Source: an uncultured Bifidobacterium sp.
GTDB lineage: Bacteria > Actinomycetota > Actinomycetes > Actinomycetales > Bifidobacteriaceae
NCBI RefSeq assembly: GCF_945269915.1
Contig: NZ_CALYOY010000020.1
Coordinates: 1-42,190, forward strand
Direction of reading: 5' to 3'
DNA: 42,190 nucleotides
The notes under the pieces were generated by a model that saw only the letters and a list, made by a program, of their open reading frames with translations, did no database searches and was not told the DNA's origin. Position 1 is the first letter of the stretch, and every line of letters begins with the position of its first letter. Positions 30,576 to 38,269 of the stretch are shown here, piece after piece. Made by a program: the position numbers and the translations under genes.

Positions 30576-30646
30576 GATGAACTCCTAGGAGACAAACGGC
30601 ACCGGGTCGCCAACCCCTGTGGCCAGCGTGAACCGGAACCGCGATT

Positions 30647-34445: not shown

Positions 34446-34605
34446 TGGGACACCTCCTCTTTGAGCTGTTTGTAGTTATTTTATCACAACAATAATATTT
34501 TGTCTTCTTAATGATAGATTTTTTTGCATTGTGCTAGTATTTCCTGTACATACCGTTCCTGTTTCCAATCAATCGGCACCTGCCGTCGGCGGGAAGGAGT
34601 GCAGA
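34446..34605. promoter_or_regulatory. Divergent promoter/operator region, permease and YheO-like regulator
   Basis: This 160-bp gap is very AT-rich compared with the rest of the window. On the minus strand TAAAAT with AAGACA 18 bp upstream is a candidate promoter for the permease. An imperfect palindrome ACAAnA...TnTTGT at 34486-34503 overlaps it. On the plus strand TTGCAT (34524) with TACATA (34547) is a weak promoter for the regulator. The regulator may bind here; unproven. Confidence 0.45.
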
Positions 34606-35427
34606 ATGGGCGACGCTGATACCATCTCCCCAGCCTTGCGGCCTTTCGTCCCCTTGGTTGATTTTCTTGGGGAGCTATTGGGACATGACACCGAGGTCGT
34701 CCTGCAGGATGTCCAGGACTTCTCGCACTCAGTGGTCGCCATAGCCAACGGACATGTCAGCGGACGCAGCGTGGGCAGTCCTGCCACCGATCTGGTGCTG
34801 AGGATCTGGCAGAACCATGAGTTCGACCACCGGAACTATCTGGTCCACTATGCCGGGTACACCCGTGAAGGCCGACCCATTGTTTCTTCCACATTCTTCC
34901 TGAGGAACACTCAGGACCAGGTCATCGGTTTCCTGTGCATCAACTTCGACAATTCCATATTCAAGGAGACCAGCAAGGCCCTGCGCACAGCCAGCGACTA
35001 TCTGGATTCCATCAGCGCCAGCGGAACCCCCTTCCCCACGCACCGGGCGGATCAGAACCCTTCCGGCCGGGACAATACCGATGTGGATCGGCATGGTGCT
35101 GAACAACTCCACACCCCTACGGGTCAACAGCCGGTGGTCACCGACGGAACGCAGGAAATACTGTCGGTCAACGCAGAGGACCTCACCAAGCAACACATCC
35201 AGACCTTTGTCAAGGAACGCGGGGTCCAGCCCGAGCGAATGAACAAGTCGGAACGATTGAAGATGATCGCCGACCTTGACGAGTCCGGCGTCTTCCTGAT
35301 CAAAGGAGCCGTCGACACGGTGGCGGGCGCCCTCGGCATCTCCTCTCCGACCGTGTACCGATACCTGCACTCGGTCAGGAAGGGTGAAGAGGAAACGCCC
35401 GAGCAAGTCGCCGAAAGCGGCAAGTAG
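34606..35427 (+). CDS. YheO/DauR-like PAS-HTH transcriptional regulator
   Basis: A 273-residue regulator. Residues ~8-125 form a YheO-type PAS-like sensor (PLVDFLGELLGHDTEVVLQD, GHVSGRSVGSPATDLVL, IGFLCINFDNS). Residues ~140-185 are a polar linker of low complexity, and ~215-258 carry a C-terminal HTH with a GALGISSPTVYRYLHSV recognition helix. DauR of this family controls D-arginine catabolism in Pseudomonas. The ATG at 34606 has GGAAGGAG about 6 nt upstream. Its position divergent from an amino-acid permease and a PLP C-S lyase suggests it controls that pair in response to an amino acid; this is inference from context. Confidence 0.88.
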   Translation: MGDADTISPALRPFVPLVDFLGELLGHDTEVVLQDVQDFSHSVVAIANGHVSGRSVGSPATDLVLRIWQNHEFDHRNYLVHYAGYTREGRPIVSSTFFLRNTQDQVIGFLCINFDNSIFKETSKALRTASDYLDSISASGTPFPTHRADQNPSGRDNTDVDRHGAEQLHTPTGQQPVVTDGTQEILSVNAEDLTKQHIQTFVKERGVQPERMNKSERLKMIADLDESGVFLIKGAVDTVAGALGISSPTVYRYLHSVRKGEEETPEQVAESGK

Positions 35428-35477
35428 GGCCGCCTTGACAAGTTGCGGCGACACGCGGCCCAACCCTAACGAGACCG

Positions 35478-35505
35478 TTGACAGCAAGGTTGACGGGTGT
35501 ATGCT
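35478..35505 (+). promoter_or_regulatory. Promoter of the 35.5-35.9 kb RNA
   Basis: A perfect -35 TTGACA at 35478-35483, then 16 bp, then TATGCT at 35500-35505 (four of six matches to TATAAT). Transcription would start near 35512, with the first base in a small TAGAG/CTCTA hairpin. A second TTGACG occurs at 35490-35495. Confidence 0.65.
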
Positions 35506-35511
35506 ATCCAG

Positions 35512-35905
35512 TAGAGGTTATCTCTATACGGGGGAAACGTATATACGATAATTCGTTGAGGTTCTGATGATGAACCTCGGTATGGAGAGCATAATGCGTG
35601 GGTTCCCCCTGACAACGACTTCGATTCGTTATTCCATTCCGATTACGTTCTGGCCTTCCCGGCATCATTCCTGTCTGAACACGTAATCCGACGCTTCTTG
35701 GCCATTGGCCAATCTCCGAACCTTGCCCAGACCCGTCCGTATGGCAGCCGCCGGCCGGGGTGCAGGCAGAGGTCCGATTAAAAAACGCGCCTAGCTCTTT
35801 TCCCCCGGCTGCCATGCATATCGCCCCCTAGGGAGTGGTACATAGCATGGTGCTAGAGCTAGGCTGCGAAAGGACGGGCCCGAGCAGTTCGGGCCCGTCC
35901 TTCTT
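35512..35905 (+). ncRNA. Candidate large structured non-coding RNA with two pseudoknots
   Basis: Between a promoter and a terminator are ~390 nt with no convincing gene and at least ten helices, all read directly from perfect or near-perfect complements. 5' domain: 35521-35529 pairs with 35580-35588 (one G-U), and 35530-35536 with 35603-35609. The two are interleaved, which gives an H-type pseudoknot. Hairpins 35545-35556 and 35558-35578 lie inside. Middle: hairpins 35614-35630, 35641-35648 with 35681-35688, and 35698-35712. 3' domain: 35741-35750 with 35806-35815 (10 bp) interleaved with 35789-35798 and 35855-35864 (10 bp), a second pseudoknot. A terminator follows. I recognise no tmRNA, RNase P, SRP or 6S signature. 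Function unknown; it lies between the YheO-like regulator and the VOC/MerR genes. It may belong to a described class (raiA, GOLLD, ROOL, 6C and others), which a covariance search would settle. Confidence 0.7.
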
Positions 35906-35907
35906 AT
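35870..35907. terminator. Strong hairpin terminator at the RNA end
   Basis: AAGGACGGGCCCGA (35870-35883) pairs with TCGGGCCCGTCCTT (35889-35902), a 14-bp stem with a 5-nt loop, followed by CTTAT on the plus strand. On the minus strand it follows the VOC stop codon directly, so it can serve both sides. Confidence 0.85.
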
Positions 35908-35910
35908 AGC

Positions 35911-36459
35911 CTAGCAAGAACCACCAGTCTCCGGGACCCCCTCCCCATACATACCCCGGCCGAGCACCTGCAGGTAGCGACGGGCCTGATCCTGATCAGC
36001 CGGAAGGGCTGCGGTCAGGGTCACCTTCAGCCCCTCCGGAGTCCGTATAGCAGCCTCCAGGGAATTCCAGGGAACCCTCCGGGGCTTCCTGGTTGACCCG
36101 GGCAGTAACCGTTCGCAGGCTTCGACCATCCCTCCGATCTGATCCCTCGTCACGGCGATGCTCAGTTTGCCGATCGAATCAGCAGGCACCGTTCCTGGTT
36201 TACGGACCAGCAGTACATCCTGAAAGGCCCACCGCCGCAGATGCGTCATGGTGCCCGGCATGGTGTAGATGACGCCAAAGCCCAATCCCCGGGTCCAGAA
36301 ATCCACCGAATCCTCAAGGTCATTGCTGGGCAGGGTCATGAACAAGGGCATCGCGTATATGCCCTCATACGGCTCGTCAGGCAGGTCGCCGGAACCAGGT
36401 GCCGGAACCGGGCTGACCTCCGCCGCATCGAAATGACCTCCTCGTTTCCTTGTATTCAT
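35911..36459 (-). CDS. VOC (glyoxalase/bleomycin-resistance) family protein
   Basis: A 182-residue single-module VOC protein. The N-terminus is Arg/Gly/Asp-rich, then the fold begins MPLFMTLPSNDLEDSVDFWTRGLGFGVIYTMPG and ends with a strand that fits the paired βαβββ unit (AIRTPEGLKVTLTAAL). Metal ligands typical of glyoxalase I are not evident, so binding or sequestration of a compound is as likely as catalysis. The ATG at 36459 has AAAGGT about 7 nt before it and lies 55 bp past the MerR stop, so it is probably co-transcribed with that regulator and is its effector gene. Confidence 0.8.
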   Translation of the reverse strand: MNTRKRGGHFDAAEVSPVPAPGSGDLPDEPYEGIYAMPLFMTLPSNDLEDSVDFWTRGLGFGVIYTMPGTMTHLRRWAFQDVLLVRKPGTVPADSIGKLSIAVTRDQIGGMVEACERLLPGSTRKPRRVPWNSLEAAIRTPEGLKVTLTAALPADQDQARRYLQVLGRGMYGEGVPETGGSC

Positions 36460-37385: not shown

Positions 37386-37579
37386 GGCGGATGCATGGGT
37401 TGGCCGGGAATGGAAAGGCGGGGTATGCGAATGACCGGAAGGATCACCCAAGGGAGGGGCTCCCGACTCTCGGCAGCCAAAGTGATACAGTGTTCCCGGA
37501 AGGTCTTCTTCCCCGGACGAGATGCGCCGTACCCGGCCTTGACGACGACGCTGCATTGCATCATGGTTCGCGGAAGGAC

Positions 37580-38269
37580 GTGGTTATTGTGGTTGTTCTA
37601 CCCCTGTGGATACAGATTGTCGGATCCCTGCTCATACTGTCGGCCTTCGCCTGGGGTCAGATGACCGACATCCCCTCATCCGACATCGCCTATCCAGGCG
37701 TGAACCTCCTGGGTTCGGGTCTGCTGGCCCTGGATGCCCTCTCAGGCCGTCAGTGGGGGTTCCTCCTCCTTGAAGTCGGTTGGATCCTTGTCTCGGCGAT
37801 CGGCCTGGTCCGAGCGCTCCGGAATCGGACCCATAGGGCTGACAAGGCAATTCAGGCGGACGAATCCGACCATGAATCAGGACCGACCATGCGCACCGGC
37901 GATATTCAGATACATGCCATCGATGAGAACCTGACCGTCTGCAAGGTGGCAGACTACTCCGGAGTGGACCTGGACGCCCCCTTCCGCTTCACTGGCAACA
38001 CCGATGAGGAACACTCCCTGGTCTGCCCAACCGATCGCCTTCCCCCGCAACTGATTTCACGCAGTGATGGATGGCGCGCCTTCCGCATCCAGGGGGTTCT
38101 CGACTTCTCCCTGATCGGCATCCTTGCTCCGATCGCCACCCTGCTGGCCCAGGCCGGAATCGGCATTTTCGCCCTGTCCACCTACAACACGGACTATGTG
38201 CTGACACAATCCTCCGATTTCGACAGGGCGATGCGGATCCTCGCAGAATCCGGATACCGAATCGTGTGA
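37580..38269 (+). CDS. Membrane (CBU_0592-like) plus ACT-domain protein, possible fusion
   Basis: A 229-residue frame from a GTG at 37580. Residues ~1-80 hold two or three hydrophobic helices (LWIQIVGSLLILSAFAWGQ, LLGSGLLALDALSG, QWGFLLLEVGWILVSAIGLVRAL) of the CBU_0592 membrane family. Residues ~104-229 are an ACT-like domain (CASTOR/ACT_7 type: VDLDAPFRFTGNTDEEHSL, GWRAFRIQG, AQAGIGIFALSTYNTDYVL). Related proteins usually occur as two separate genes. No stop codon lies between the parts, but an ATG at 37889 with AGGA 6 nt upstream could start the ACT part alone. ACT domains bind amino acids, which would make this a membrane-anchored sensor; that is inference. Confidence 0.72.
   Translation: MVIVVVLPLWIQIVGSLLILSAFAWGQMTDIPSSDIAYPGVNLLGSGLLALDALSGRQWGFLLLEVGWILVSAIGLVRALRNRTHRADKAIQADESDHESGPTMRTGDIQIHAIDENLTVCKVADYSGVDLDAPFRFTGNTDEEHSLVCPTDRLPPQLISRSDGWRAFRIQGVLDFSLIGILAPIATLLAQAGIGIFALSTYNTDYVLTQSSDFDRAMRILAESGYRIV

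Follow-up and report, generated by a model that had tools for sequence, protein, structure and literature searches.

A probable stand-alone noncoding RNA gene with a predicted two-domain pseudoknotted fold in Bifidobacterium

The window analysed here, a stretch of 42,190 nucleotides from an uncultured Bifidobacterium sp. (contig NZ_CALYOY010000020.1), contains a gap between a YheO-like gene (34531-35427, with PAS_6 and HTH_22 domains) and a convergent VOC gene (Glyoxalase domain) ending at 35911. The gap carries a candidate RNA gene on the same strand as the YheO-like gene, delimited by the following features.

35478-35505, plus strand: sigma-70-type promoter, TTGACA-16-TATGCT (consensus scan)
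35511-35905, plus strand: proposed RNA gene, about 390 nt, predicted transcript, with homologues in 21 of the 27 genus genomes compared
35870-35883/35889-35902, plus strand: 14-bp perfect terminator-type hairpin (helix count)

The promoter reported in a preliminary description of this DNA was confirmed, and the 5' end of the RNA is expected near 35511-35513. The terminator proposed there is present as a hairpin of 14 perfect base pairs, but its U tail is weak and a consensus terminator scan of 35380-35990 called none (0 found versus 0.7 expected by shuffling). The convergent VOC gene may use this hairpin as well. At the curated cut-offs of Rfam 15, all 4227 families of which were scanned, the whole window yielded only an L31-Actinobacteria ribosomal leader (30598-30642, minus strand) and a Guanidine-III riboswitch (37493-37554, plus strand, 44.4 bits). 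The open reading frame at the Guanidine-III aptamer (37391-38269, plus strand) has an ACT_7 domain and an apparently hydrophobic N-terminal part; its true start is probably later, since the listed start lies upstream of the aptamer.

The gap is unusually rich in helices. The preliminary description had counted ten, perfect or nearly so, and considered them more than chance would give; the count is approximately right, with nine perfect helices of at least 7 bp, terminator included, compared to a mean of 3.93 in 300 dinucleotide shuffles (2/300 reach nine), and three of at least 10 bp compared to 0.05 (0/300). With the terminator hairpin removed, the values are 7 versus 2.77 (5/300) and 2 versus 0.05 (0/300), respectively. 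The folding energy has z-scores of -4.1 and -4.7 in two computations with the terminator and a mildly unusual -1.81 without it, 15 of 300 shuffles being equally low; a fold with much of its pairing in pseudoknots would give so mild a value. The four interleaved helices proposed earlier all exist, three as perfect Watson-Crick runs (35530-35536/35603-35609, 35741-35750/35806-35815 and 35789-35798/35855-35864) and one with a single G-U pair (35521-35529/35580-35588). A 9-bp helix, 35529-35537/35799-35807, is also among the nine, and was not among the four helices for which the preliminary description gave coordinates.

A BLAST search over 27 genomes of the genus gave a match in 16, the window's own included. 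Five more loci, all diverged, came from R1, a covariance model built on the 3' core, bringing the homologues to 21/27. These fall into clade A (the window genome G000, G014 and G015), clade B (13 genomes) and clade C (G001, G002, G013, G021 and G026). R3, a model trained on clade C sequences only, finds 14 of the 16 A and B loci in the right place with E-values of 3.4e-5 to 0.0106, including the window (35770-35869, E 4.7e-4). It misses G014 and G015, both of clade A. A genome of another genus, G042, is matched more strongly (E 0.0078) than G011 and G025 are (E 0.0106). Over 189 genomes of the family, R3 returned 20, namely the five clade C genomes used for training, the 14 A and B genomes and G042, and R1 returned 22, the 21 of the genus and one locus in another genus (L042), where only a terminator-like hairpin is seen by eye. 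A BLAST search of the same 189 genomes with a clade C query gave the five clade C genomes and G016, the latter match (L048) being read as chance in an apparent coding stretch. In a sample of 345 genomes of the class searched with R2 (E<=0.01), only the window and L096 were found, and L096 is by eye a chance match whose 3' arm is absent. Searches over more than 40 genomes use stricter filters, by which weak matches may be lost. The RNA was not found in viral contigs with an exact pattern, nor in plasmids with blastn.

The homologues share a locus and its transcription signals. A -35 box precedes the RNA at 21/21 loci; by pattern, all 16 A and B loci have TTGACA with a -10 box TAT[GC][ACT]T, and the clade C loci have TTGACA (4/5) or TTGACT (1/5), with -10 boxes read by eye only. 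A terminator-type hairpin of differing sequence stands at the equivalent position in each of the three clades. In clade B promoters (e.g. L007), an inverted repeat, ACACCC-N6-GGGTGT, lies between the -35 and -10 boxes and is partly kept in clade A; it is a possible operator through which the RNA might be regulated. The RNA is divergent from an L31 (rpmE) leader at all 21 loci, with the core 0.6-5.5 kb away. In clade C this leader is only a few hundred bases from the RNA, and for this reason the two promoters may be coupled there. Within the roughly 1.2-1.5 kb covered upstream, a YheO match is found at 14/21 loci (B 13/13, A 1/3, C 0/5), two of which are more widely spaced, with the match 450 nt off the RNA. 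At two clade B loci (L009 and L013) the YheO-like match is in two pieces and the gene may be broken. On the 3' side, a tRNA-Met lies on the opposite strand within about 1.5 kb at 14/21 loci. The neighbours annotated, for part of the flanking genes, are YheO, VOC, MerR, L31, PrfA, PrmC, tRNA-Met and transporters. The longest open reading frame over the 21 loci spans 25-109 aa on the plus strand and 22-98 aa on the minus strand; by this comparison of lengths, which vary, no long frame is prominent, and a coding gene appears unlikely.

Two helices form the core of the 3' domain.

35717-35723/35770-35776, plus strand: P5 helix (35717-35776), from covariation; one A-C mismatch, in the window
35789-35797/35856-35864, with outer part 35786-35788/35866-35868, plus strand: P6 core helix (35786-35868), from covariation

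For P6, 11 pairs were counted, 35789/35864 being left out, and 98.2% of 165 cells from 15 distinct core sequences are paired, a level that 0/500 shuffles reach and that compares with 18-37% in slid controls. Double-sided changes occur at 4 of the 11 pairs (14/500 shuffles reach) and in 11 cells (0/500), with no excess of further pair types (128/500). For P5, the arms of which were picked by eye and without a slid control, 146 of 147 cells are paired over 21 loci and 7 pairs (0/1000 shuffles reach), with double-sided changes at 4/7 pairs (51/1000) and in 12 cells (0/1000), and again no excess of further pair types (326/1000); none of these shuffle counts is a probability, since shuffles ignore relatedness. 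In the five sequences of clade C alone, double changes that preserve pairing are found at 31 of the 129 predicted pairs. The corresponding figure for clades A and B together (16 rows) is 24/129 pairs with double changes, in an alignment the middle of which is doubtful; between clades, the middle of the RNA (about 35580-35715) aligns poorly. Both P5 and P6 are supported by compensatory changes across the clades, the margin over shuffles being slight for the number of double-changed pairs. What pairs as G-U on one strand reads as an A-C mismatch on the complementary one. G-U cells outnumber A-C cells by 14 to 1 in P5 and by 4 to 3 in P6, so that the comparison favours the plus strand mainly through P5, with P6 nearly neutral.

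The 5' domain, the pairings that may link it to the core and a further helix that crosses the core involve the following elements.

35521-35529/35580-35588, plus strand: helix alternative to P2 (35521-35588); both words in 3/3 clade A loci and 0/18 others
35525-35530/35538-35543, plus strand: P2 hairpin (35525-35543), TATACG-GGGGAAA-CGTATA, with a G-rich loop; read in 21/21 loci
35529-35537, plus strand: G tract CGGGGGAAA, 5' half of the predicted long-range pseudoknot; nine Watson-Crick pairs with 35799-35807
35558-35578, plus strand: P3 hairpin, GAGGTTC/GAACCTC; perfect in the window
35603-35609, plus strand: alternative G-tract partner, TTCCCCC, pairing with 35530-35536; perfect 7 bp in the window
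35741-35750/35806-35815, plus strand: helix crossing P5 and P6 (35741-35815); perfect 10 bp in the window
35799-35807, plus strand: C tract TTTCCCCCG, 3' half of the predicted long-range pseudoknot, inside the P6 loop

The arms of P2 are invariant in clades A and B, and varied yet mostly kept in clade C. The equivalent of P3 in clade B has 97.6% of 84 cells paired, compared to 24-57% in slid controls; no pair is changed on both sides, and the level is not in excess of shuffles (129/500 reach it). The G-rich P2 loop and the 3' tract UUCCCCCGGCU are present in 21/21 loci, and the C-tract TTCCCCCGGCT is invariant in 15 sequences of A2. With G-U allowed, the G tract and the C tract form consecutive pairs at all 21 loci (9 in clade A, 7 in B and 6-8 in C); being invariant, these partners cannot covary. 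Rival partners of the G tract are found in clades A and B. The equivalent of 35603-35609 offers 7-9 consecutive pairs, G-U allowed, at 16/16 A and B loci, with 8-9 at those other than the window's, and, counting Watson-Crick pairs only, 7 in L002 and L003 and at most 4 in clade B. In the stretch tested in clade C, this near partner reaches at most 6 consecutive pairs. RNAalifold on the A and B sequences chose yet another partner for the G tract. As several pairings of the G tract are found in A and B, they would compete there, and the far tract at 35799-35807 is, among the predicted partners, the only one common to the three clades. From these matches we infer that the P2 loop and the C tract pair in a long-range pseudoknot.

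These comparisons revise in part the two pseudoknots of the preliminary description, one at each end of the RNA. At the 5' end, the helix 35530-35536/35603-35609 has its equivalent at 16/16 A and B loci, but its crossing partner 35521-35529/35580-35588 is confined to clade A and competes with the local P2 hairpin. At the 3' end, P6 covaries, but its crossing partner 35741-35750/35806-35815 is likewise a feature of clade A, where 9/10 pairs are unchanged in the other loci and the outer pair is lost in L002 and L003; its words are absent in 18/18 B and C loci. The second partner of the G tract, 35799-35807, kept at 21/21 loci, had been missed. The broader proposal, that the plus strand encodes a large structured RNA of pseudoknotted topology, is supported.

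Promoter signals at 21/21 loci, upstream genes that change, no apparent long shared frame and a covarying fold point to a structured RNA acting in trans. The signals of a promoter and terminator of its own (the latter with a weak U tail in the window), together with helices that compensatory changes maintain (P6, P5 and clade C), are features of a stand-alone noncoding RNA. We therefore consider it probable that the gap holds a stand-alone plus-strand noncoding RNA gene with its own promoter and terminator, encoding a two-domain pseudoknotted RNA that probably acts in trans and represents a new class. The RNA would be about 390 nt long, or as much as about 470 nt among clade C loci, with a 5' domain made of the P2 hairpin with its G-rich loop and P3, a 3' domain made of the P5 and P6 core, and the two tied by pairing of the P2 loop with the invariant UUCCCCC tract inside P6. 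Judging from sequence comparison, it would be transcribed from the promoter described above and most likely act as a folded object, and less likely as a coding gene, mRNA leader or antisense RNA; a role as scaffold or in a ribonucleoprotein is a guess.

The invariance of the C tract, which is C-rich and lies in a loop, would also suit an antisense regulator, in which the seed UUCCCCCGG would pair with mRNAs at G-rich ribosome-binding sites and, when not in use, be covered by the G loop of P2. The UCCC-motif sRNAs of Gram-positive bacteria are a parallel for such a seed, and in clades A and B, which offer other partners for the G tract, the C tract could be freed. Complementary sites, searched as perfect 10-nt sites only, nevertheless show no enrichment: the counts over five genomes, which include the RNA gene itself, are 7, 7, 8, 6 and 8, and those of the reversed control in the same genomes are 24, 10, 11, 10 and 12. 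When 25 of the 31 sites outside the RNA were compared, a single cross-genome protein match was obtained, and it is weak (25% identity). We regard an antisense function as unlikely.

The stand-alone structured RNA preferred here was compared with known classes. Around the locus, 12 Rfam matches were obtained at E<=10, all sub-threshold, and at seven loci of the three clades scanned at E<=5 only sub-threshold matches fall on the RNA (e.g. ssnA, 20.8 of 37.3 bits, at L037, and BjrC68 near the terminator, 22.4 of 39 bits, at L039), with tRNA and L31 leaders above cut-off. No family thus reaches its cut-off at the locus or its homologues. The preliminary description saw no signature of tmRNA or RNase P, and correctly so: ARAGORN finds no tmRNA in the window, and the only RF00010 match of the genome is on another contig (C33:5480-5854, 296.9 bits). 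It left open membership of raiA, GOLLD, ROOL or 6C, which the scans do not bear out. The best raiA (RF03072) match in the genome is on another contig and scores 9.5 bits against a cut-off of 101.3, with none at the locus or its homologues, and the Rfam scans gave no match on the RNA to GOLLD, ROOL, OLE, 6C or 6S, families which we take to be in the library scanned.

The new RNA might still be a far-diverged member of raiA, Ms1/6S, OLE, ROOL or GOLLD, past recognition by the models, as these classes share the style of stand-alone, pseudoknotted RNAs with a vegetative promoter and divergence inside the new family is itself high. The raiA-motif RNA (ModT) is described in the available text of its report as a stand-alone pseudoknotted RNA of a few hundred nucleotides, found in Bacillota and Actinomycetota (PMC11706538). 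The new RNA, as predicted, is like it in these respects of build and unlike it in giving no match at its cut-off; among the part of the flanking genes that was annotated, comFC/raiA, a common though not strict neighbourhood of that RNA, was not seen. OLE, ROOL and GOLLD are similar as large orphan structured RNAs, for which homo-oligomers are described in the available text of PMC12286853; the new RNA differs in having no Rfam match, in being found in one genus only and in its absence from the viral contigs and plasmids searched. It resembles Ms1/6S in standing alone, Ms1, an RNA that binds the RNA polymerase core, coming from the same phylum, but has no 6S match in Rfam, and its predicted fold lacks the shape of a single long bubbled hairpin. 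A HAD-family hydrolase, the neighbour of the Ms1 locus, was not seen among the part of the flanking genes that was annotated; the available text of PMC9130861 reports Ms1 as absent from Bifidobacterium. With no Rfam family at cut-off, a raiA score of only 9.5 bits in the own genome, and a distribution that is limited to one genus and fits a single gain, a diverged member of these classes is decidedly unlikely. The class appears new in that no relative was found in Rfam 15, its broad type, the stand-alone structured noncoding RNA, being familiar; a full-text search found no report of this RNA in the literature as available.

A cis element, either the 3' UTR of yheO or the leader of a neighbouring gene, would account for the co-oriented YheO-like match that precedes the RNA in the window and at 13/13 clade B loci, but such a match is missing at 7/21 loci and 450 nt away at two more, each of the 21 loci has its own promoter signals and the next gene in the window is convergent, which makes this reading very improbable. 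That the helices are due to chance or reflect conservation of DNA, with no RNA, is hardly credible given the double compensatory changes and G-U tolerance, even if the folding energy without the terminator is only mildly unusual.

In the genomes searched so far, the predicted range of the RNA is this genus only. A pattern scan of named genomes gave 12 contigs, all of Bifidobacterium: B. asteroides (3), polysaccharolyticum, apousia, [indicum], xylocopae, mizhiense, mellis, choladohabitans, sp. 7101 and sp. B4142, which we take to be bee bacteria. At the syntenic place in the six RNA-less genomes of the genus and 14 other genomes of the family, only partial motif matches were seen (L060 and L077), neither core-like by eye; in 7 of these 20 stretches a tRNA-Met lies on the minus strand in the first 800 nt, on the side of the L31 leader. 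At L060, L061 and L063 (genomes G005, G006 and G017), no tRNA-Met was found in the 7 kb examined, and open reading frames of thioesterase and ABC-protein size adjoin the L31 leader; a local rearrangement may have removed the RNA there. In a tree of PrmC only (312 columns, with 3 of the 13 clade B genomes sampled), support is 100 for A and B together, 100 for the three sampled B genomes and 98 for C; clade A is recovered as a clade with its support value absent. The six RNA-less genomes form two further clades with support of 100 each, and the placement of G005, G006 and G017 has a support of only 32. With that weak placement (32), the distribution fits one gain and at most one later loss, consistent with a single origin of the RNA, and its narrow range suggests that this origin is recent.

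Beyond the reading of a stand-alone trans-acting RNA, we put forward, as a tentative extension, that the class had a single origin in bee-type bifidobacteria and functions as a large structured RNA machine or scaffold, possibly switchable or self-associating. Switching would involve the G loop pairing either with the C tract, a pairing available at 21/21 loci, or with the nearer pyrimidine tract in clades A and B (16/16). For self-association, the complementarity of the G loop and the C tract could in principle also be satisfied between two copies of the RNA, the loop of one pairing with the tract of the other.

New classes of large structured RNA are rare in bacteria. The abundance that such an RNA can attain is illustrated by raiA/ModT, which according to the available text of PMC11706538 rivals ribosomal RNA in C. 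difficile. The narrow range tempers the interest of the present class. Its three diverged clades serve the analysis of covariation, and, as the carriers include named isolates, the structure and function of the proposed RNA are open to direct study.
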